Positions 44,931-55,179 of a stretch of 64,000 nt of DNA are shown in pieces. The DNA is from Candidatus Ozemibacter sibiricus (GTDB lineage: Bacteria; Muiribacteriota; Ozemobacteria; Ozemobacterales; Ozemobacteraceae): NCBI GenBank assembly GCA_003327425.1, contig QOQW01000008.1, forward strand, positions 62,001-126,000. The letters are read 5' to 3'. The notes beneath the pieces were generated by a model that was not told where the DNA came from, searched no databases, and was given only the letters and a program-made list of their open reading frames with translations. How positions within the stretch are numbered: position 1 is the first letter of the stretch; the number at the start of each line of letters is the position of its first letter. A program made the position numbers and the translations under genes.

Positions 44931-45599
44931 TCAGGGGGTCGAGCGCAGTTCCAGCCCGCCGGCGCTGGGGGTGCGCAGGACGAAGGTACGCAACCGTCGC
45001 CGGTTGTTGGGGATGTCGCGGGTCAGGGACGCATTCGCGTAGACGGGGTAGCCGGGGTCGGTGACCAGGTTGAGGATGACCTGATGGGGATCGGAAGCGA
45101 TGTTCCGCGGGTACCAGAAGGCCAGGCGATCGAGGGCGAGGCGGTTAGGAGCGATGACGGCGCCGGGGGTCGAGAACCCGTCGTGTCGCACGCGGTAGGT
45201 GAAGGTGATTCGCGTCTCGCCGGGTTCGATGTTGTAGAACCAGAAGTAGGGCGGCACATAGCGGAAGGCGAGATCGCGCTGGGAGCTGGTGATGGTCATC
45301 TGCTTGAAATTGCCGTGGCAACGCATCACCACAGGGTCGGAGGCGGTGGTCACGAGCCAGGCGTCGGCGATGATCGCCGCCTCGTAGGCGGCCGGGTCGA
45401 ACTCGGCGTACATGTTGACCAGGGCGAGGTCGTAGAGCGCTTCGCTGGCCAGCGGCACGGTCGCCACCGGCGGGATGCCGGGCAGGGCGCGCACGGGGTG
45501 GCCCGAAGGGCCGCCCGGCAATGGTTCGGCCGCCGCCCCGAAACTGGCGGCCACCGCCACCATCAAGATGATCGCCAGGCTTGTCCGAATGTGGGTCAT
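44931..45599 (-). CDS. Exported hypothetical protein, last gene of the radical SAM unit
   Basis: A 222-residue protein with a signal peptide (SLAIILMVAVAASFGAAAEP). The mature part is beta-rich (FRYVPPYFWFYNIEPGETRI) with a single Cys (MRCHGNF), and ends in a region with RRLRTFVLRTPSAGGLEL. I recognise no family. The start overlaps the EamA stop as ATGA, so the two genes are translationally coupled. If the upstream genes make a modified peptide, this may be its envelope partner; that is speculative. Confidence 0.65.
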   Translation of the reverse strand: MTHIRTSLAIILMVAVAASFGAAAEPLPGGPSGHPVRALPGIPPVATVPLASEALYDLALVNMYAEFDPAAYEAAIIADAWLVTTASDPVVMRCHGNFKQMTITSSQRDLAFRYVPPYFWFYNIEPGETRITFTYRVRHDGFSTPGAVIAPNRLALDRLAFWYPRNIASDPHQVILNLVTDPGYPVYANASLTRDIPNNRRRLRTFVLRTPSAGGLELRSTP

Positions 45600-46531
45600 G
45601 GGGTGTCCTCCTTCGTGGTCGGGCCGGCGCTATCGGGCGGTCCGGGGGTGCGGTCGAACGCGATGCCGAACATGACCAGGACGGTCCCGGCCAGGGCGGC
45701 GGGGACCGGCTGCTCGCCCAGGAACGCCCAGGCCAGGCCGATCGCGACCGGCGGCTTGCAGAAGAACAGGAGGCTGGTGCGGCCGGCGGGCAGGGCGGCC
45801 AGGGCCTTGAAGAAGGTGATGTAGCCGAGTCCCGACACCACCACCCCCAGCACCAGCAGGCGAGGCCAGAGATCGGCCGGGGGGCGCACCGGAAGATCGA
45901 GCCAGAGCAAGATGGGCAGATAGGTGGCGACGCCGAGGGTGAAGCTGAGCACTGTCACGCGCAGGCTGCCCAAGCGTTGCACGATGCCCTTCGACAGCAC
46001 GGTGTAGAGGGCGAAGCCGGTCAAGCCGACCAGCCCCATGGCGATGCCGAAGGGGGTGTCGGCTCCGGGCGTGGGACGGGCGGCCACCAGGGTCACCCCA
46101 GCGAACCCGATCAGCAGAGCGACCAGTCGACGCCAGCCCATCGGCTCGCCGAGCAGCAGCCAGGCGAACAGGTTGGTCGCCAGCGGGTTGGCGGCGATCA
46201 GGATGGCGGCGGTCGAGGCCTTGGCGAATTTGATGCAGACGGCATGCGCCCCCATCGCCACGATGATGTTCAGGCCGCCCAGGCCCCACAGGCGGAGCAG
46301 GTCGCCCAGGGACAGGCGCGCCGGCTCGCGCCGCGGCGCCGCCAGCCAGGCCGGGACCAGACAGGCCACGCCGAGCAGGAACCGCCAGAAGGTCATGACC
46401 GCCGGTTCGAGCCGGTGCCGGATCGGGTTGGCCACCACCTCGATGGCGCTGAACGCCACCACGGTGAAGGCCAGCAGGAACGGCAACCGCCCGCGGGCCC
46501 ACCAGGCTCGCCAGCCGACCGGTTCCTGCAT
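45596..46531 (-). CDS. EamA/DMT-family transporter
   Basis: A 311-residue protein with ten predicted membrane helices in two five-helix EamA repeats. Signatures are ANPIRHRLEPAVMTFWRFLLG in the first and YTVLSKGIVQRLGS...ALAALPAGRTSLLFFCKPPVAIGLAW in the second, the latter the usual C-terminal half motif. Members export or import small metabolites and amino acids. It follows the radical SAM gene by 37 bases and is coupled to the next gene, so it could export the product of that unit. Confidence 0.87.
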   Translation of the reverse strand: MQEPVGWRAWWARGRLPFLLAFTVVAFSAIEVVANPIRHRLEPAVMTFWRFLLGVACLVPAWLAAPRREPARLSLGDLLRLWGLGGLNIIVAMGAHAVCIKFAKASTAAILIAANPLATNLFAWLLLGEPMGWRRLVALLIGFAGVTLVAARPTPGADTPFGIAMGLVGLTGFALYTVLSKGIVQRLGSLRVTVLSFTLGVATYLPILLWLDLPVRPPADLWPRLLVLGVVVSGLGYITFFKALAALPAGRTSLLFFCKPPVAIGLAWAFLGEQPVPAALAGTVLVMFGIAFDRTPGPPDSAGPTTKEDTP

Positions 46532-46568
46532 GATGGCTGCTCCTGATCGGCCGGGGGAAGGGCTTCCC

Positions 46569-48068
46569 CTACCCGGCCGTCGTCGTCGTTTCGGCCACGC
46601 GCGTGGCCAGTCCGGGCGCGGCCGTCGTGCGTGGCGAATGGGCCCCGCACGAATCGGTGCCGGACAGTTCCCTGTCTTCGGGATAGAAGCCGAATTTCTT
46701 GAGGATCTTCAGCTTGGGCAGGACATTGTTGGCCAGATCCATGTGGAAGAACCCCGGGAAGATGTCGGGGTGCTCCTGGATGAACTCGTAGATCGGCCGG
46801 TGGGTCGGGGCTACCTGGAAATGCGACAGGTGGCTGATCTCGTGCCCGGTGATCATGTACTCGGGGAACAGGCTGGGACTGAAATCGAGGGGGTAGCGCT
46901 CGCGGTTCTCGCGGAACAGCTCGGTCTGGGGCAGCAGGCAGAGCAGGGAAGGCAGGATACGCGCGCCCATCTTGCGCAGCATCACCATCTGGAAGACGGT
47001 CTGGTGGAAGTCCTCCATCGTCTCGAAGGGGAATCCCCAGACGTAGAAGGCGTCGACCCGCGGAAAGATCTGCACGGCCTCGCCTACCCGGGCGATCGCC
47101 TGTTCGGCGGTGAACCCCTTCTTGACGAGCTGCAGCACCCGGTCGGAGCCGCTTTCGATGCCGAATCGCAGCTCGACGCAGCCGGCCGCCGCCATCGTCT
47201 CCATCATCTCGCGGTCGGTCAGATCGACCCGGCCGAACGCCTTCCACAGGACGGGCAGCCCGGTCTCGCGCAGCTTCTGGCAGAAGGCCATGACCTTGGG
47301 CTTGTTGCAGACGAAGAACTCGTCCTGGAACAGGAACATCTTGACGCCGGCCTGTTCATGCAGATGGCGCATCTCGGCGATGATGTGGTCGACCGAGCGG
47401 AAGGTGGAATCGTGGTCCCAGACCGGGGCGACCGAGCAGAACGTGCAGGGGTAGGGGCAGCCGCGCGTCGACATCAGTCCATACCCTTGATAGCGGGGCA
47501 GATCGACCTTGTGGAAGGCGGGCAGAGGCAGGGCGTCGAGATTCCGGATCCGTTCGCGGCGGGGGGTGCGCACCACCTGCCCGTCGGGGCCGCGCACGAC
47601 CAGGCCGGCCACCTGGCGCAGGTCGGCGCCCGCCTGCCAGGCGGCGAGCAGCTCGGGGCCGGTGCGTTCCCCTTCGCCGACCGCGATGGCATCGACCCAG
47701 GGGAACCGGGTCATGATCTGCTCCTCGACCGCTTTGGCGCCGACCCCGCCCAGCACCAGGAAGCGGTCGGGGTAGCGCTGCTTGACCTCCTTCATCGCCA
47801 GCAGCGCGAAGGGCAGCAGGTTGGCCATCACCGAGAAGCCGATGACCGGCGCGGGATCATGCAGGAATTCGACGATCCGGTCGGGCAGGAACGGCTCGTC
47901 GAACGTGTTGAGCTGGTAGTCGCGGAAATCGACGACGTAGCCGGCGTCTTCGAGCGCCCTGGTCAGGTACAGGCAGCCGAGGGGGACGTGCAGCTCGCGG
48001 TCGATGCCCTCGAGATACCTGACGTAGAGCAGGTTCAGGTTGAGCAGGGTGAGGTCGGCGGCGGGCAT
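46569..48068 (-). CDS. B12-binding-domain radical SAM protein
   Basis: A 499-residue class B-like radical SAM enzyme. Residues 1 to about 145 form a Rossmann-like cobalamin-binding domain (VPLGCLYLTRALEDAGYVVD, LVLGGVGAKAVEE, VDAIAVGEGE). The radical SAM core has CX3CX2C at Cys204, Cys208 and Cys211 (STRGCPYPCTFC), then FLFQDEFFVCNK and ELRFGIESGSDRVLQLVKKG. Such enzymes methylate or rearrange unreactive carbons in lipids, cofactors or peptides. The gene is 3 bases after a protein with a peptide-leader-like domain, suggesting that protein as substrate. Confidence 0.9.
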   Translation of the reverse strand: MPAADLTLLNLNLLYVRYLEGIDRELHVPLGCLYLTRALEDAGYVVDFRDYQLNTFDEPFLPDRIVEFLHDPAPVIGFSVMANLLPFALLAMKEVKQRYPDRFLVLGGVGAKAVEEQIMTRFPWVDAIAVGEGERTGPELLAAWQAGADLRQVAGLVVRGPDGQVVRTPRRERIRNLDALPLPAFHKVDLPRYQGYGLMSTRGCPYPCTFCSVAPVWDHDSTFRSVDHIIAEMRHLHEQAGVKMFLFQDEFFVCNKPKVMAFCQKLRETGLPVLWKAFGRVDLTDREMMETMAAAGCVELRFGIESGSDRVLQLVKKGFTAEQAIARVGEAVQIFPRVDAFYVWGFPFETMEDFHQTVFQMVMLRKMGARILPSLLCLLPQTELFRENRERYPLDFSPSLFPEYMITGHEISHLSHFQVAPTHRPIYEFIQEHPDIFPGFFHMDLANNVLPKLKILKKFGFYPEDRELSGTDSCGAHSPRTTAAPGLATRVAETTTTAG

Positions 48069-48071
48069 CGT

Positions 48072-49148
48072 TCAGTCCTCGCGGCGCCGCGGGACATCGG
48101 GCCGGGAGCCGCGGGTGGGCTGGAAGGAGTCGAACAGACGCTGCAAGGGTTCCCGGGGCGGGGCGCCGAGCTGCTTGAACCGGATCGCCAGGGCCCGGTC
48201 GCCGAGATCGATCTCATACAAGGCCCCGTCGCCGGCGACCTCGGCGCACAGCGCGCGGATGGCCTTGCCCAGAGGCAGGCCGGCCACCGAGCGGGCGACC
48301 GGTCGGTTGACATCGAGGCCAGGGCAGGGCTGCACGGTGATGCCGATGCCGGTCTCGTTGCGCAGGGCGTTGATGGCGGCTTCGAAGCTGAGGCCGGCCG
48401 AGTTGGTGTGGACGATCAGCTCATGTAGGGTCTCCGTGGTGAGGGGCGTCGTGGCGACCGGGGTGGCCGGCGCCTCGGTCGAAGCGGGCGGTGGGGCGGG
48501 CGGCGGGGAGGAAGGCGGCAGATCGGGCCGGATGCCTCGGGTGATGCGGATCTCATCGGGCAGATCAGGCCGGATGCCGCGGGTCATGAGATCTTCGTCC
48601 GGCAGATCGGGCCGCGCCCCGCCAGGGGGCATGGCATGCGGGGAATCGGGGCGCCCCCCCTCGGCGGTGGGGCCGGCGTCAGGATCAACGGCGAGGGGGC
48701 CGGCTTCCTGCGGCGAAAGATCTTGGATCGTCTGCATTCCGTCGGGCGGTGGTTCGGCCCGTCCGGCGACCGGTGCGAACGTCAGTTGGGTGACCAGGGC
48801 CACCAGCGCGGCGGCCGAGCCGCCGGCCAGCAGCCGGCGTTGCGGTTCGGGCACCGGGGTGAGCCGCGCCATTTCGCGCAACTGCCCGGCCGGCACCAGC
48901 TCCAGCATGTCGCGCTCGGCCGGATCGAGGGCGAGCCCGATGGCATCGGCCAGCCCGGCCCGTTCGGTCACCAGCCGTTCGAGGAAGGCGGGGTCGACCG
49001 CCGCCTTCATCATCAACGCCTCCAGGCCGCGCGGAATGCCGGCCCCCGTCGTGCGGGCGCCGGCCGGGCGGCCGCCGACGATGGTATGTCCCTGCGCGCG
49101 CGGGCTGTCGGCCGTCGCCATTCTGATCTTCCGGTCTTGTTCGCTCAT
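48072..49148 (-). CDS. NHLP-leader-like protein with Tat-like segment, RPDLP repeats and STN-like domain
   Basis: A 358-residue protein with four parts. Residues about 41-95 (DPAFLERLVTERAGLADAIG, LDPAERDMLELVPAGQLREM) resemble the leader domain of NHLP/Franean1_4349-type RiPP precursors. An Arg-Arg-Leu-Leu followed by 20 hydrophobic residues (104-127) looks like a Tat signal or anchor. Residues 165-211 have GRPDSP, ARPDLP and two exact-length 14-residue repeats ending GIRPDLP, and the tail has SRPDVP at 348-353. Residues about 236-325 resemble an STN/secretin-N short domain. The radical SAM gene follows after 3 bases. Family likeness is by eye; alternatives are an anti-sigma or TonB-type regulator. 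Confidence 0.6.
   Translation of the reverse strand: MSEQDRKIRMATADSPRAQGHTIVGGRPAGARTTGAGIPRGLEALMMKAAVDPAFLERLVTERAGLADAIGLALDPAERDMLELVPAGQLREMARLTPVPEPQRRLLAGGSAAALVALVTQLTFAPVAGRAEPPPDGMQTIQDLSPQEAGPLAVDPDAGPTAEGGRPDSPHAMPPGGARPDLPDEDLMTRGIRPDLPDEIRITRGIRPDLPPSSPPPAPPPASTEAPATPVATTPLTTETLHELIVHTNSAGLSFEAAINALRNETGIGITVQPCPGLDVNRPVARSVAGLPLGKAIRALCAEVAGDGALYEIDLGDRALAIRFKQLGAPPREPLQRLFDSFQPTRGSRPDVPRRRED
48516..48614 (-). repeat. 42-bp in-gene tandem repeat encoding RPDLP units
   Basis: Two 14-residue units (RPDLPDEDLMTRGI and RPDLPDEIRITRGI) are followed by a third RPDLP. The DNA units are 42 bp and nearly identical, so the copy number could vary between strains. Confidence 0.65.
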
Positions 49149-49343: not shown

Positions 49344-52337
49344 TCAGGCCGAGGCTCCCCGGCCGATCTCATAGGCGTCAGGGGGCTGGCCCGGGGCGGT
49401 CGGCAGCGGGACGATGGTCCAGCCCTCGCCCAGCCGAGACGCCGTGAGGGGACAGACGACCAGTTTGGTATGGACGGTCCGTTTGGTCACCTTTTCCATG
49501 GCGGCGGCCCGGTTGACGGTGGGCCCGGTCACCGTGAACTCGCGGCGGCCGTCGGCGCCCCCCACCAGGCCCATCAACAGCTCGCCGGTGGCGATGCCGA
49601 CTCCGCAGGAGATGGTGAACAGGCCTCGGCGCTGGCGATCGCGATTGAACCGGCCCAGCGCCTTGAGCATATCCAGCCCCGCCTGGGCGGCTCGCCGCTC
49701 GGGGGTGTCACGGCCGTGCATGGGCAGGAAGACGGCGAAGATGGCGTCGCCGATGAACTTCTCGATGGTGCCGGCATGCTTCTCGATCGCCACCTCCATC
49801 GCGGTGAGGTAGGCGTTCAGCATGTCGACGACCGCTTCTGGCGGGTGTTCTTCGGCCAGGGCCGTGAACCCGCGGATGTCGGCCATGATGACCGTGCCGG
49901 TCGCCCGGGTGGCCCGCGCGGTCTGGCCGCCTTCCACCGCTTCCAGAGCGAGATCCGACAGGAAACGCCGCAGGAATTCCTTTTCCCGCACGCCATCGGC
50001 CATCCGATTGAAGCTGGAGCAGAGCTGACCGAGTTCATCATCGCTCGTCACCGGCAGCCGCACGTCATACTGGCCGCCGGCCATCGTGGCCACGCCCTCC
50101 TGCAGGGCGCGGACCGGCCGCAGGAAGATGCGCTGGAAGAACAGGATGGCCAGTCCGGCGATCAGCAACGGGTAGAGGCCGGCCAGGACCGCTGCCACCG
50201 CGATGGGGTCGGCGGGATCATCTTCGGGTTGGCGCCGCAGGGCCACGGCGACGAAGTCGGTCCCCTTGAGCGGGCGAGCGATGGCCAGGAGCCGACCGCG
50301 GGGCCGGTGGCCCCCAACCGCCGCCGGGAGGGCCGGTTTGGGCAGGATGAGCCGCTGCACTCCCTGCTCCCGGAAGGCTTGCCGGAGCAGGACCGTGGCC
50401 AGCGGAAAGACGTCGGCCCACTCGGGGATGTGCGGTGAACTCCGGGCGGCCAGGGTGTTCATCAAGATCAGGCGCGGGAACGGGCCGCGATCCAGGTGCC
50501 GCTCGGACGCCCGGGCGATGAAATTGCGGAACTGGATCTCCTCGCGCCGGAAGATGAGCAGGAAGAGCCGATGGGGCTGGCGGTCGGCATCCCGTGTGAC
50601 CTCGAGCATGGCCCAGGCCACTTCGTGCAGCATCCGGAAGGGGAGCAGCCGGCCGGTCTGCACCACCATGCGCAGCATGCTGTCTTTTCCCACCATGGCT
50701 TCGAGGAATTCATAAAGGACGCCGCCCCGGACTTCTTCGATGTTGACGTCTTTCCGGGGCGGGCCGGGCTCGGCCAGGACGAAGCCGAAATGCTCGCCGA
50801 CCTTGTGCAGGAGAGCGGTCACCAGCGGGGTCATCTTGGCGGTCGGGTGTGATGATGCCGAGGCGACCACCCCTTTCGGGGGACCGATCTTCGTGGCGAA
50901 AGAGGCTGGAGGGCGAGGCTCTCCTGGTCGCAGGATGAGTTCGCCCGAGAAGGTCAGGACTTCGGGATGGCCACGCGCCACCAGATACACGGTGCCGGCT
51001 CCCTGGATGCCTAGATCGAGAACGGCAGAGGCGATGGCGGCGCGCGACGGGAGGACGGGGGCGCGCCAGTCCGGCCGTCGGAGGAAGCGGCGAGCGGCGG
51101 CCACGGCGGCCTGGAGCTGCTGATTGAGGGATTGTTCCATGGCCTCCAGCTCGGCTTCGGCCTGACGGAACAGGGTCAGTTCCTGGAGATTGGCCTCGAG
51201 TCGGGAGCGGGTCCAGGCGATCCAGAGCATGCCGAGGCTTGGAAGGAAGGTGGCGAGCAGCACGAGAGTGAGGAATTTGCGGGTGATGCTGGCGGTCCAG
51301 CGCCAGGGCTGGAACCAGCCGATCCATCCCAGGACGAGCAGTCCGCCGACCCAGGCCCCGGTCAGGCCGAGCATCCAGGGCGTTCTGGCCAGCCGGACCG
51401 GCGGGGGGAAGCGGCGGAGGTGCACCATCACCCACCCGGGGATGTCGGACAGGTGGACGAACGCGAGGCCGGCGGTGTCGGTGACGAACACGCCCTGGTC
51501 CTGGTCGGGCAGGATCTGGCGCATCTGGTCGGGACTGATCGCCGACCCGCGCAGCCACGGGTAGGGACCGCGGACGGGCCCGATCCGCACCGGCAGACTA
51601 CGGGCCAGGCCGCTCGACCGCAGGGCGCGAACCAGGCACCGGCGCGAGGTGAGCTGGTGTTGCGGGATGAAGACGGCGACCCGGGCTTGCACTTCAGGAA
51701 GGGTGTTGGGGGGGCGCCAACGATACGGATACAGGGCTTCGCGCATCGACTGGTTCAGGCGGCGGGGCGGCACCAGGGCGAAGAACAGCGCCCCGCGCCG
51801 ACCATGCATGGTGACTTCGGCGAAGTTGGCGAAATTGTAGGGAGCGCTCATGAGGCTGGCATTCCCCAGCATCTCCCGCAGACGAATCTCATGATCTTCA
51901 GCGTATTTCCAAAAGTTGGTCTCGCGGTGATACTGATGCCCCATGGTCTTGTGGAGGATGTCGAGTTCGACGGGCTGGAAATGCCGATGCCGGATCAGCC
52001 GGCCTTCGCCGTCCCCGTCCCATAGGGCGAAAGCGACCTCGTTCCCGTAGGCGCGCCGGAGTTCCCGTTCGAAGCGCCGGAAGCCCTGGCGCGTTCCGCC
52101 CAGAAGGTGGCCGAGGTTGGCGTAGAGGAACTCCTCGGCCAGGAAGACGGGATCGGCGCGGCCGCGCAGCACGGGCAGCAGCTGGCGCAGCTCCGCTTCC
52201 CGCGAAGCGCGCAAGGTCTCGGCCTGGGTTCGTTCCAGGCGATCGAGGAAGAGCCATTGGCCGGCCAGCAGCAGCGCGAGGCCGAGCACGCCGAACGGCG
52301 CCAACGCCGACGGCGGGGGCGAGCGGCGTTCAGGCAT
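49344..52337 (-). CDS. Membrane class III adenylate cyclase, catalytic-metal subunit
   Basis: A 997-residue receptor cyclase. The N-terminal helix (about 12-30), two central helices, a fourth near residue 690-715, two extracytoplasmic sensor regions and a HAMP (PVRALQEGVATMAGG...DDELGQLCSSFNRM) match its neighbour. The cyclase domain (from about 815) has both metal ligands: Asp820 in MADIRGFT and Asp864 in EKFIGD, with adenine-selecting Lys860 and Thr935. Asn942 is present, but the transition-state Arg is Ala946 (VNRAAAME instead of VNLAARLE). It should need a partner giving the Arg. ATG 52337 has GGAGG 7 bases upstream and overlaps the upstream gene by 8 bases. Confidence 0.87.
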   Translation of the reverse strand: MPERRSPPPSALAPFGVLGLALLLAGQWLFLDRLERTQAETLRASREAELRQLLPVLRGRADPVFLAEEFLYANLGHLLGGTRQGFRRFERELRRAYGNEVAFALWDGDGEGRLIRHRHFQPVELDILHKTMGHQYHRETNFWKYAEDHEIRLREMLGNASLMSAPYNFANFAEVTMHGRRGALFFALVPPRRLNQSMREALYPYRWRPPNTLPEVQARVAVFIPQHQLTSRRCLVRALRSSGLARSLPVRIGPVRGPYPWLRGSAISPDQMRQILPDQDQGVFVTDTAGLAFVHLSDIPGWVMVHLRRFPPPVRLARTPWMLGLTGAWVGGLLVLGWIGWFQPWRWTASITRKFLTLVLLATFLPSLGMLWIAWTRSRLEANLQELTLFRQAEAELEAMEQSLNQQLQAAVAAARRFLRRPDWRAPVLPSRAAIASAVLDLGIQGAGTVYLVARGHPEVLTFSGELILRPGEPRPPASFATKIGPPKGVVASASSHPTAKMTPLVTALLHKVGEHFGFVLAEPGPPRKDVNIEEVRGGVLYEFLEAMVGKDSMLRMVVQTGRLLPFRMLHEVAWAMLEVTRDADRQPHRLFLLIFRREEIQFRNFIARASERHLDRGPFPRLILMNTLAARSSPHIPEWADVFPLATVLLRQAFREQGVQRLILPKPALPAAVGGHRPRGRLLAIARPLKGTDFVAVALRRQPEDDPADPIAVAAVLAGLYPLLIAGLAILFFQRIFLRPVRALQEGVATMAGGQYDVRLPVTSDDELGQLCSSFNRMADGVREKEFLRRFLSDLALEAVEGGQTARATRATGTVIMADIRGFTALAEEHPPEAVVDMLNAYLTAMEVAIEKHAGTIEKFIGDAIFAVFLPMHGRDTPERRAAQAGLDMLKALGRFNRDRQRRGLFTISCGVGIATGELLMGLVGGADGRREFTVTGPTVNRAAAMEKVTKRTVHTKLVVCPLTASRLGEGWTIVPLPTAPGQPPDAYEIGRGASA

Positions 52338-55179
52338 CGAGCGCCTCCACGCCGAAGATGGTGAGGGCACCCACCCGGCCGCGCACGGTGGTGATCGTGG
52401 TCGGCAGCAGACGGACCCCGGGCAGGGGACGGATGAGCACCGCGGCGGTGGCCAGGATGGTCGGCCGGCCGGGGCGTCCGGCCTCCTTCTCCAGGCGGGC
52501 GGCCAGGTTGACGGTGTCGCCGATGACGGTGAAATCGAGGCGTTTGCGCAGGGAGCCGATGTGCCCGGCGATGACCGGGCCGGCGGCGATGCCGGTGCCA
52601 TGGCGGAAGATCGGCAGCCCTGCCCGGGTTCGCTCTTGCATCCAGGTGTGCAGGCTGGCCTGCAGGGTCAGCGCGGCTCTCACCGCTCGCTCCTCGGGCG
52701 CCGCCAGCCCGGGGGCGGGAAAGAACACCGCCATGGTCGCATCGCCCAGGAACTTGTCGATCTCGCCGCCCCACGCGCGGGTGGCGGCCTCGCAGCGCGC
52801 GAGGAAGCCGCTGCGCACGGCCATGGCTTCGTCGGCGGGCAGGGCCGCCTCCAGGCGCGCGAATTCCCGCAAACCCGAGAAGCTGACGGCCACCTGCCGG
52901 CGCTCGGTCATGACCTGCGGGGCTTCTTGCGCCTGGGCGATCAACTCCCGGTTCAGCAGGGGCAGCATCCGGGATTTCTGGCGCAACTCCTCCACCAGCC
53001 GGTTGAATCCCTTCGCCAGCGCGCCCAGCTCATCGTCGGCCTGGGGAATGGCCACCACGTCGTAATGGCCGCGTTCCAGCTCATCCATGGCGCTGGCCAG
53101 CGCCAGGACGGGGGCCAGCAGCAGCGATTCCAGAATGCCCGCGAGGCACATGGCCACGCCCAGCGTCATCACGCCGAACAACGCCAGGAAACGCCAGGAA
53201 TGGGCGAAGATGCCCTCGCCCCCATCGTCGGGCACGATGACGGCGCCGACGGTGGACAGCCCGGCCAGCGGCCGCCCCCGGGCGAGATAGGACCGCCCGC
53301 GCATGGTGAGTCGCATGGTGATCAGTTCCTGGTTGAACTGCACGAGATCGAGGAGCTCCTTCAGGCGAGGATGCCGCGGCTCGCGACGAAGGCCGGCCGG
53401 AGCGAGGGTCCGCAGGAAGATTCTTTCAGGATGGGGCTGCCGGGCCAGCCAGTCCTGGAAGAACCAGGCGCAGAACCGTGGGAAATCGAACGTGACCAGC
53501 AGGAAGTCGCGGGGTTCGCCGGTCGCCGTCTTGCGCACCGAGCTGTACAGGAAGAACTGGTCGCCGCCGAACTGGGTGAGTCGCAAGCGGGCGTTGGGCA
53601 GGAAATCGATCATGTCGCGCCCGCTCAGGAAAGATTCGATTACCGGCACCGACATCTTCTGCAGGTCGGCGATCTGGAAATGCGCGGCTTCCAGGAGCCG
53701 CTTGATGAAGTAGTGGAGGGCGCTTCGGGTGCCGACATCGGCATACGGGCGAGCTGTCAGCGTCGACAGGATCCGCCATCGCTGGCGGGCGTAGGTCGCA
53801 TCTTTGCAGCCGAAGGGTTGCAGCGGTCGGAGCAGGTCGAGCACATCCTGCAGGTCGTTGATCCGGCCATAGGCGGGCGAGGCGGTCACCGCGCGCAGGA
53901 GGTTCTGGACATGAGGAATGCCGCTGGCCACAGCCTGCTCGGCCGACAGGAGCTGGTTCTCCAGTTCCTGCTGCACCTCGGCTTCCCGGTGCTGCGCCGA
54001 TTTCACCAGGAAATCGAGGCCCCAGATGCTCAGGAACAGCAGCGGGAAGCCGGTCAAGGCCATGGTCCCCAGGCGGAAGCGGGTCGCCAGCCGCAGGGAA
54101 GGCGCCAGCAGACCGCCTCCCATCGCCAGCAGGGCCAGAGCGGCGAGGGTGACCAGCCCGATCGTGAGGCCGCGGATGAGCCGAACGGCGCGAGCGGCCT
54201 GCCGCGCGGCCGGAGAGGTCTGGCGGACGGCAGCGACGAGCACCAGGTCGGGGTCTTGCGACCAGAACCGGGCCAGGAAGGTGAAGCCGCCGTGCGACAG
54301 GAAGCCCTGGCCGTTCTCGAGCCGCTGGAACAACCCGTGCATGAGCCCCGGATTGAGCAAGCCGTCAGGCTGGGCCACGCCGTCGCCATAGCCGTTCTGC
54401 CGCGACTGCCAGTAGCCGCCGACCTTGGTATCGGCGGTGGTGAGGCGGGCGACCGCCCGCTTCAGCTCCCACCCGAAGCTGGCCCGGCCGGTGGGAACGA
54501 GGAGCAGGAACCCGCCCAGGCGGGGCGCCGCGCGCCGCCCTGGTCGCCGGTTGCGGGGCGACCGCAGCACCCGGCCGGCCATCAGCATGGCTTCCCCTTT
54601 GAAGAGCACCGGCACCGGCTGCCGGAAGCCGGCGCGCAGGGATTCGATCGATGCCAGGGTTCCCATGGTGAACCTGATCTGATGGGCGGCCAGCCTGGCT
54701 TCGGCGGGGGTGGCCCCGCCCCCGGGCGCGAGCGTACGGTAGACCGCCTGCCAGGCCGTTCGTTCCGGCACCGGCGGCCCGCCGGCCGGTTGCACCAGGC
54801 GGCCGGCGCGATCGAACCAGTAGAGACGGCTCGCGGCGGGAAACCGCCGGAAAAAGGCGGCCGACAGCACGCGGACGCGCGTGGGGGTCACCGCGCGGTT
54901 CCCCAGAGCGGTGGCGGCCTGCGCGGCGAAGGCATCGAGCGCGGCGCCGACGAGCGAGGGCAGGTCGAGCTGCCGGTCGAGGCGGGCCATCACCGCCCGG
55001 GCCCGATCCCGGTCGGCCAGGTCGAGGACGCGCGCCTGTTCGGTTTCGAACTGGACGAGCAGCTGCTCGATCAGCCACGCGGGCAGGACGATGCCGAACA
55101 GGAAGAACAACAGCAGCCAGAACGGGCTCGGGGTGGTGCCGGCGGCGGCCGGAGCCGTGGTAGGAGGCATGGCAGGCAT
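52330..55179 (-). CDS. Membrane class III adenylate cyclase, Arg-donating subunit
   Basis: A 949-residue receptor cyclase of the same layout as the downstream gene. It has a first membrane helix at about 20-42, a large extracytoplasmic region, two helices at about 340-395, a second sensor region, a helix near 680-705 and a HAMP (DDELGALAKGFNRLVEEL). In the cyclase domain the first metal Asp is replaced by Gly769 (FSGLREFA versus FADIRGFT). Asp813, Lys809, Thr884, Asn891 and Arg895 (VNLAARLE) are intact. Alone it should be poorly active. The start ATG 55179 faces a divergent gene 42 bases away. Confidence 0.87.
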   Translation of the reverse strand: MPAMPPTTAPAAAGTTPSPFWLLLFFLFGIVLPAWLIEQLLVQFETEQARVLDLADRDRARAVMARLDRQLDLPSLVGAALDAFAAQAATALGNRAVTPTRVRVLSAAFFRRFPAASRLYWFDRAGRLVQPAGGPPVPERTAWQAVYRTLAPGGGATPAEARLAAHQIRFTMGTLASIESLRAGFRQPVPVLFKGEAMLMAGRVLRSPRNRRPGRRAAPRLGGFLLLVPTGRASFGWELKRAVARLTTADTKVGGYWQSRQNGYGDGVAQPDGLLNPGLMHGLFQRLENGQGFLSHGGFTFLARFWSQDPDLVLVAAVRQTSPAARQAARAVRLIRGLTIGLVTLAALALLAMGGGLLAPSLRLATRFRLGTMALTGFPLLFLSIWGLDFLVKSAQHREAEVQQELENQLLSAEQAVASGIPHVQNLLRAVTASPAYGRINDLQDVLDLLRPLQPFGCKDATYARQRWRILSTLTARPYADVGTRSALHYFIKRLLEAAHFQIADLQKMSVPVIESFLSGRDMIDFLPNARLRLTQFGGDQFFLYSSVRKTATGEPRDFLLVTFDFPRFCAWFFQDWLARQPHPERIFLRTLAPAGLRREPRHPRLKELLDLVQFNQELITMRLTMRGRSYLARGRPLAGLSTVGAVIVPDDGGEGIFAHSWRFLALFGVMTLGVAMCLAGILESLLLAPVLALASAMDELERGHYDVVAIPQADDELGALAKGFNRLVEELRQKSRMLPLLNRELIAQAQEAPQVMTERRQVAVSFSGLREFARLEAALPADEAMAVRSGFLARCEAATRAWGGEIDKFLGDATMAVFFPAPGLAAPEERAVRAALTLQASLHTWMQERTRAGLPIFRHGTGIAAGPVIAGHIGSLRKRLDFTVIGDTVNLAARLEKEAGRPGRPTILATAAVLIRPLPGVRLLPTTITTVRGRVGALTIFGVEALDA

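Follow-up and report, generated by a model that had tools for sequence, protein, structure and literature searches.

How is a protein used that begins with a leader domain of the kind known from peptide-modification systems, continues with an export segment, and is encoded directly beside a B12-type radical S-adenosylmethionine (SAM) enzyme? The question is raised by a gene pair in a genome of Candidatus Ozemobacteraceae (Riflebacteria), located on a 64,000-nucleotide stretch of contig QOQW01000008.1 that was analysed as a whole and is referred to here as the window. The initial annotation joined this pair with two downstream genes into a candidate system for a ribosomally synthesized and post-translationally modified peptide (RiPP), in which a precursor protein, here named P1, is modified by the radical SAM enzyme. 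Our analysis indicates that P1 and the enzyme probably form a system of two components for the leader-guided modification of cell-envelope proteins. Coordinates of all features are collected in Table 1.

Linkage of the leader protein and the enzyme

Among the 39 genomes of the phylum that were surveyed, the enzyme is present in exactly those 11 that carry P1 homologues. At the related phylum loci the enzyme gene directly follows the P1 gene in 10 of 10 cases, one of them from another family titled Muiribacteriota; one additional P1-like copy (L031) stands alone. Identities to the window proteins range from 56 to 94% for the enzyme and from 27 to 77% for P1. In a presence/absence test of 381 genomes, for which the leader and enzyme profiles were searched separately, both profiles match the identical 13 genomes and neither matches any of the remaining 368. 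Two of the 13 lie outside the phylum, and the genes are neighbours in both.

A wider sample was obtained by scanning genome contigs with the enzyme alignment, and the best 80 of 238 loci were taken, comprising 73 from the clade of the window enzyme and seven from a sister clade. The underlying records are nearly all metagenome-assembled or uncultured and represent Planctomycetota, Myxococcota, Armatimonadota, Spirochaetota, Verrucomicrobiota, Chloroflexota, Lentisphaerota, Kiritimatiellota, Elusimicrobiota, Zixibacteria, Coatesbacteria, and Thermodesulfobacteriota, among others. Leader proteins at these loci were found with a hidden Markov model (HMM) built from the P1 leader, and 109 of them were aligned. 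One to six leader proteins lie near the enzyme at 66 of the 73 clade loci, in more than a dozen phyla, and of the 72 enzyme loci with 700 bp or more of upstream DNA, 61 have a leader protein in the 3 kb upstream of the enzyme, some of them in tandem groups of as many as five; as the leader profile derives from enzyme-linked loci, these locus counts are biased toward linked copies, a bias that is smaller in the 381-genome test. Four of the seven leaderless clade loci (L079, L093, L104, and L120) are cut by contig ends. In 19 genomes reached via the loci, leader genes mostly adjoin the enzyme, with few located elsewhere, and no plasmid-borne copies were found at E 1e-60.

Judged by sequence, the arrangement corresponds to that of RiPP systems, with a predicted leader next to an enzyme of a modifying type. 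The initial annotation had left it to be seen whether the leader-like region belongs to an unrelated family and whether the pair is conserved. Both doubts are removed, because the leader falls in the NHLP clan, as described below, and the pair stays together in relatives and beyond.

The leader domain

The helical, leader-like region that had been recognized in P1 is recovered by HMM search: residues 41-94 match the NCBIfam model NF038399 (Os1348 family, NHLP clan) with an E-value of 1.6e-4. The same model matches 107 of the 109 leader proteins (best E 2.2e-12), the Pfam model Frankia_peptide (Franean1_4349) matches 48, and the nitrile hydratase alpha chain model (NHase_alpha) 19, with only three matched by TIGR03793, the model of classical NHLPs. 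The leader profile also finds the solved Os1348 structure 6lk7 (E 2.9e-7), and in the predicted model of P1 the leader domain consists of confident helices, with a predicted local distance difference test score (pLDDT) of ~90. These matches support the assignment of the P1-type leader domain to the Os1348/Franean1_4349/NHLP clan. The GG at residues 108-109 of P1 is not conserved in the alignment of relatives. In most leader proteins a TIVGGRP motif or a close variant sits before the leader domain, and tandem arrays often contain some copies that have this motif and others that lack it.

Export segment and cargo

A hydrophobic segment follows the leader in nearly all 109 leader proteins. Loose sequence patterns place an RRxF-like motif before this segment in 37 of them and a lipobox-like cysteine after it in 52; the twin-arginine translocation (Tat) signal model TIGR01409 matches six. 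The lipobox cysteine is absent from the window P1. The Tat-like RRLL noted initially is indeed present in P1, but its RR is missing in most near relatives, and clear RRxFL Tat-type signals are found in distant relatives. The proline-rich stretches that follow the export segment are probably disordered, as they have low confidence in the P1 model; they bear the GxxPD motifs described below.

Toward the C-terminus, P1 carries a cargo domain, whose predicted model was compared with solved structures using VIA-align. It resembles EscC 3gr5 (Z 8.6, root-mean-square deviation (rmsd) 2.5, 81 aligned), PupA 2a02 (Z 7.7, rmsd 3.2, 79 aligned), and the N0 domain of PilQ (Z 7.2, rmsd 2.8, 78 aligned), and phage tail hubs match the fold as well or better (9h4p: Z 10.2, rmsd 2.5, 84 aligned). 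A Pfam match for the domain was not found. From this fold comparison, an STN/N0-like domain is a plausible assignment. Such domains occur in secretins and TonB-dependent receptors.

The cargo of other leader proteins includes pseudopilin G of the type II secretion system (five proteins), polyhydroxybutyrate (PHB) depolymerase (three), and BiPBP_C (two), as well as acyl carrier protein, TonB_C/AgmX, and carboxypeptidase-regulatory domains. Beside the Riflebacteria pair, a second leader protein is encoded on the opposite strand at two loci (L026:7390-8256 and L058:7495-8412). In these proteins a pseudopilin-like domain replaces the STN-like one, and MGIRPTEQ stands directly after the hydrophobic segment.

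The G-x-R-P-D motifs

The repeated RPD motifs seen at initial annotation proved far more frequent than chance would allow. P1 contains five copies of G-x-R-P-D-x-P, where 20,000 shuffles average 0.0038 and never give more than one. The motifs are conserved across relatives and vary in number, as would be expected if they were sites of modification. Across the leader proteins, G[IVASM]xPD was observed 169 times against 3.75 expected (shuffle maximum 10), and a slightly wider pattern reaches a density of 11.7 per 1000 amino acids in leader proteins versus 0.115 in other open reading frames (ORFs) of the same loci. The median distance between the cysteine (or the end of the hydrophobic segment) and the first copy is 11 residues, and that between the last copy and the C-terminus is 16. 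Leave-one-out conservation is highest for Gly (97-100%), followed by Asp (86-91%), Pro4 (83-85%), Pro7 (83%), and Arg (65%). One family member (G028/L030) has lost the STN-like domain while keeping the leader, the hydrophobic segment, and three GIRPD/GIRSD copies, so the motif rather than the cargo appears to be the conserved feature.

At each of two Myxococcota-type loci (L112 and L113), the enzyme is surrounded by five or six leader proteins, in which GxxPD is followed by long Asp-Thr repeats. Further GxRPDxP proteins were sought in the window genome, where two extra DNA pattern matches were rejected, having no convincing coding frame.

The radical SAM enzyme and its sister clade

The second gene product had been described as a B12-radical SAM enzyme with a CX3CX2C motif. 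This description holds: the Pfam B12-binding and Radical_SAM domains both pass their cut-offs and the motif is in place, which by sequence identifies the protein as a cobalamin-dependent radical SAM enzyme. Its best NCBIfam match is ApyD (NF050148; E 1.3e-52, 179.1 bits versus a cut-off of 750), and BchE and HpnJ are matched below threshold. The predicted enzyme model (pLDDT 83) has its closest solved fold in MgmA (Protein Data Bank (PDB) 9ccb; E 3.9e-21, 22% identity over the aligned part), followed by OxsB, CysS, TsrM, and TokK.

A distinctive feature of the clade is a C-terminal tail, of which C474-G-A-H-S478 is invariant in 26 aligned members. A pattern search detects SCGAHS in 68 of the 73 clade members versus none of the seven members of the sister clade. 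Among the five clade members without a pattern match, L120 has a tail that is recognizable by eye, the sequences of L122 and L125 are broken or truncated, and the tail is absent from L109 and L110. The tail cannot be placed in the structure, because the pLDDT of the model is below 50 from residue 467 on.

The sister clade (L126-L132) is split off by a 100/100 branch and has neither the SCGAHS tail nor leader proteins nearby. At six of its seven loci, the upstream gene encodes an exported protein of ~190 amino acids with an invariant RTPSAVAG[VI]RG at its end (e.g., L127:5245-5886 and L130:2918-3496). The clade looks like a related, leader-independent system, and the short G-[V/I]-R that this protein tail shares with the motif fits an enzyme group that may target motifs of this kind. 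Downstream at the sister-clade loci are genes for an NAD-epimerase and another radical SAM protein, and a TPR-CHAT protein is encoded upstream.

Proposed mechanism

From the observed gene linkage, domain order, and motif enrichment, we infer steps of binding, modification, and leader removal. The enzyme would dock on the leader domain in the cytoplasm, the compartment that provides its cofactors, and would act at each G-[I/V/A/S]-x-P-D motif. The reaction would most likely be a C-methylation, which is favoured because ApyD and MgmA, the nearest characterized peptide- and protein-acting enzymes, methylate carbon; a cross-linking or other radical reaction is possible. Tat or Sec would then export the protein, and signal peptidase I or II would cut behind the hydrophobic segment to leave a modified periplasmic or surface protein. 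As the cut falls behind this segment, the leader would be removed together with the signal. On envelope proteins that are not otherwise related, the modified motifs may serve as a shared mark or anchor.

The product would thus probably be a modified envelope protein, and a small excised peptide is not expected. In place of the ordinary small-peptide RiPP, the substrates appear to be complete proteins, exported or lipoprotein-like, whose cargo is interchangeable. In its broadest form, the proposal describes a post-translational tagging system, in which a leader placed before a Tat/Sec signal recruits one enzyme to G-[I/V]-R-P-D motifs of envelope proteins that are unrelated to one another and provides a general mark or anchor rather than a natural product; for this form we consider the chances evenly balanced.

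Several observations weigh against a leader-guided modification of the motifs. The window leader scores 21.7 bits, below the curated NF038399 cut-off of 40, and no leader protein lies near the enzyme at L082, L116, and the truncated L125, which are clade loci with upstream DNA present. The motif is not universal, because 9 of the 66 leader-bearing loci lack a strict copy, including loci with pseudopilin- and PHB-depolymerase-type cargo. Its conservation does not fix the reactive atom, Gly being the most constant position, and the motif is a putative site of modification.

Alternative explanations

An alternative is that the enzyme modifies leader proteins elsewhere, for instance in the leader domain, at TIVGGRP, or near the signal cleavage site, and that an unrelated partner in the envelope uses the GxxPD motifs for binding or sorting. 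The conservation of TIVGGRP (74 of the 109 leader proteins) and the nine loci that combine enzyme and leader without a strict motif point in this direction. However, about one third of the leader proteins have no TIVGGRP, the motif is almost confined to leader proteins, and a third conserved gene that could read a sorting signal is missing: when the neighbours of 64 loci were clustered, no conserved protease, exporter, or second enzyme was found, and nothing beyond widespread families, protein kinases and response regulators among them, emerged. We consider modification elsewhere unlikely. That a small molecule or a lipid is the product or substrate of the enzyme, with P1 as a carrier, scaffold, or regulator that binds it via the leader, would suit the lipid and small-molecule enzymes among its B12-radical SAM relatives (the sub-threshold BchE and HpnJ matches and the CysS and OxsB folds) and the acyl carrier protein among the cargos. 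The strict one-to-one co-occurrence with a RiPP-type leader, the tandem paralogues with varying tails, and the short repeats fit a peptide substrate instead, which renders a small-molecule role quite improbable.

The four-gene RiPP cluster of the initial annotation, with excised RPDLP cores, export by the EamA protein, and the secreted protein as partner, draws on the layout of the locus. All four ORFs lie on the same strand, with gaps of 3 bp between P1 and the enzyme and 37 bp between the enzyme and EamA and a 4-bp overlap between EamA and the secreted-protein gene, which lies just beyond the span initially annotated (45596-49148); the genes are likewise adjacent and nearly overlapping in a few close relatives. 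A conserved four-gene system is nevertheless contradicted by the related phylum loci, since EamA accompanies the pair only at L021 and L022 and the secreted protein only at L022 and L023, with neither found beside it elsewhere. Neither protein is thus a core part, and the leader proteins have export signals of their own. The single promoter assigned to the four genes is also unsupported, as no sigma-70-like site was found upstream of P1. Taken together, the four-gene cluster appears highly improbable, and a leader-guided system of two components remains the preferred interpretation.

Features of the locus

Upstream of P1, on the same strand, lie two related genes of the HAMP/adenylate-cyclase type (window 49344-55179), and the close relatives L021 and L022 have retained them at this position. 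No Rfam elements were found in the window.

Table 1. Window coordinates of the genes, domains, and motifs of the P1 locus
Feature	Position	Strand	Residues	Basis or remark
P1, leader-bearing exported protein, proposed radical SAM substrate	48072-49148	-		ORF, 358 aa; homologues in 11/39 phylum genomes
B12-type radical SAM enzyme, proposed modifying enzyme	46569-48068	-		ORF, 499 aa
EamA	45596-46531	-		ORF, 311 aa
Secreted protein	44931-45599	-		ORF, 222 aa
TIVGGRP N-terminal motif of P1	49065-49085	-	22-28	in 74/109 leader proteins
Os1348/NHLP-type helical leader domain of P1	48855-49037	-	~38-98	NF038399 match, profile, model
Hydrophobic export segment of P1, then conserved GRA-E/D	48774-48821	-	110-125	alignment; model helix 112-124; signals in relatives
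Motif GGRPDSP of P1	48639-48659	-	164-170
Motif GARPDLP of P1	48600-48620	-	177-183
Motif GIRPDLP of P1	48558-48578	-	191-197
Motif GIRPDLP of P1	48516-48536	-	205-211
STN/secretin-N0-like cargo domain of P1 (plausible)	48168-48443	-	236-327	model pLDDT ~85; fold comparison
C-terminal motif GSRPDVP of P1	48090-48110	-	347-353	C-terminal copy conserved across Riflebacteria family
CX3CX2C motif (CPYPCTFC) of radical SAM enzyme	47436-47459	-	204-211	three cysteines invariant in family
C-terminal SCGAHSP tail of enzyme	46632-46652	-	473-479	alignment, pattern search

Comparison with known systems

The P1 family and its enzyme would represent leader-guided RiPP-type modification in a new form, and there is a reasonable chance that they belong to a new class of envelope-protein tagging. 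No description of GIRPD, TIVGGRP, or SCGAHSP in this context, or of a related concept, was found in the open-licence PubMed Central (PMC) literature. If the proposal is true, leader-guided radical SAM chemistry is not limited to small secreted peptides but also reaches complete exported proteins of the envelope, in over a dozen phyla that are mostly uncultured. Leader-dependent modification and N-terminal signal peptides have been expected to exclude each other, and the system would be at odds with this. It would also supply a defined pair of enzyme and substrate, with short repeated target motifs, on which new B12-radical SAM chemistry could be tested, and it raises the question of what role one common modified motif plays on unrelated envelope proteins.

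With respect to the enzyme, the closest fold belongs to MgmA, the glutamine C-methylase of methyl-coenzyme M reductase, which likewise acts on a protein rather than a small peptide. MgmA is dedicated to one enzyme complex, and its substrate is not known to carry a leader. ApyD is a B12-radical SAM enzyme that methylates tyrosine C-beta of a peptide (PMC10635010) and thus resembles the window enzyme as proposed here. It differs in being described as containing a RiPP recognition element and in its partners, namely a multinuclear non-heme iron-dependent oxidative enzyme (MNIO), a P450, and a methyltransferase, which are not seen at the loci studied here.

With respect to the substrates, the precursors of the NHLP/Os1348/Franean1_4349 type (Haft et al. 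2010, PMC2887384; Os1348, PMC7726476) share with the P1 family a helical N-terminus related to nitrile hydratase alpha, a variable region behind it, and tandem paralogues beside a modifying enzyme. Classical NHLPs have a leader with a Gly-Gly end, short cores, and clustering with ABC exporters (PMC2887384), whereas members of the P1 family have long tails, with a Tat/Sec signal, often a lipobox, and a large GxxPD cargo; the B12-radical SAM enzyme is their only conserved partner, and no conserved exporter gene is located nearby. The RiPP-lipoprotein hybrids or DAG-RiPPs, and the chryseobasins resemble the product proposed here, being modified secreted proteins or lipoproteins with varied cargo, a short conserved motif that is modified, and maturation by signal peptidase (PMC12636315). 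Lipoprotein-type RiPPs have been expected to arise mainly via leader-independent pathways, and in DAG-RiPPs an MNIO enzyme reads a C-terminal motif without a leader (PMC12636315), whereas in the P1 family a leader precedes the signal.

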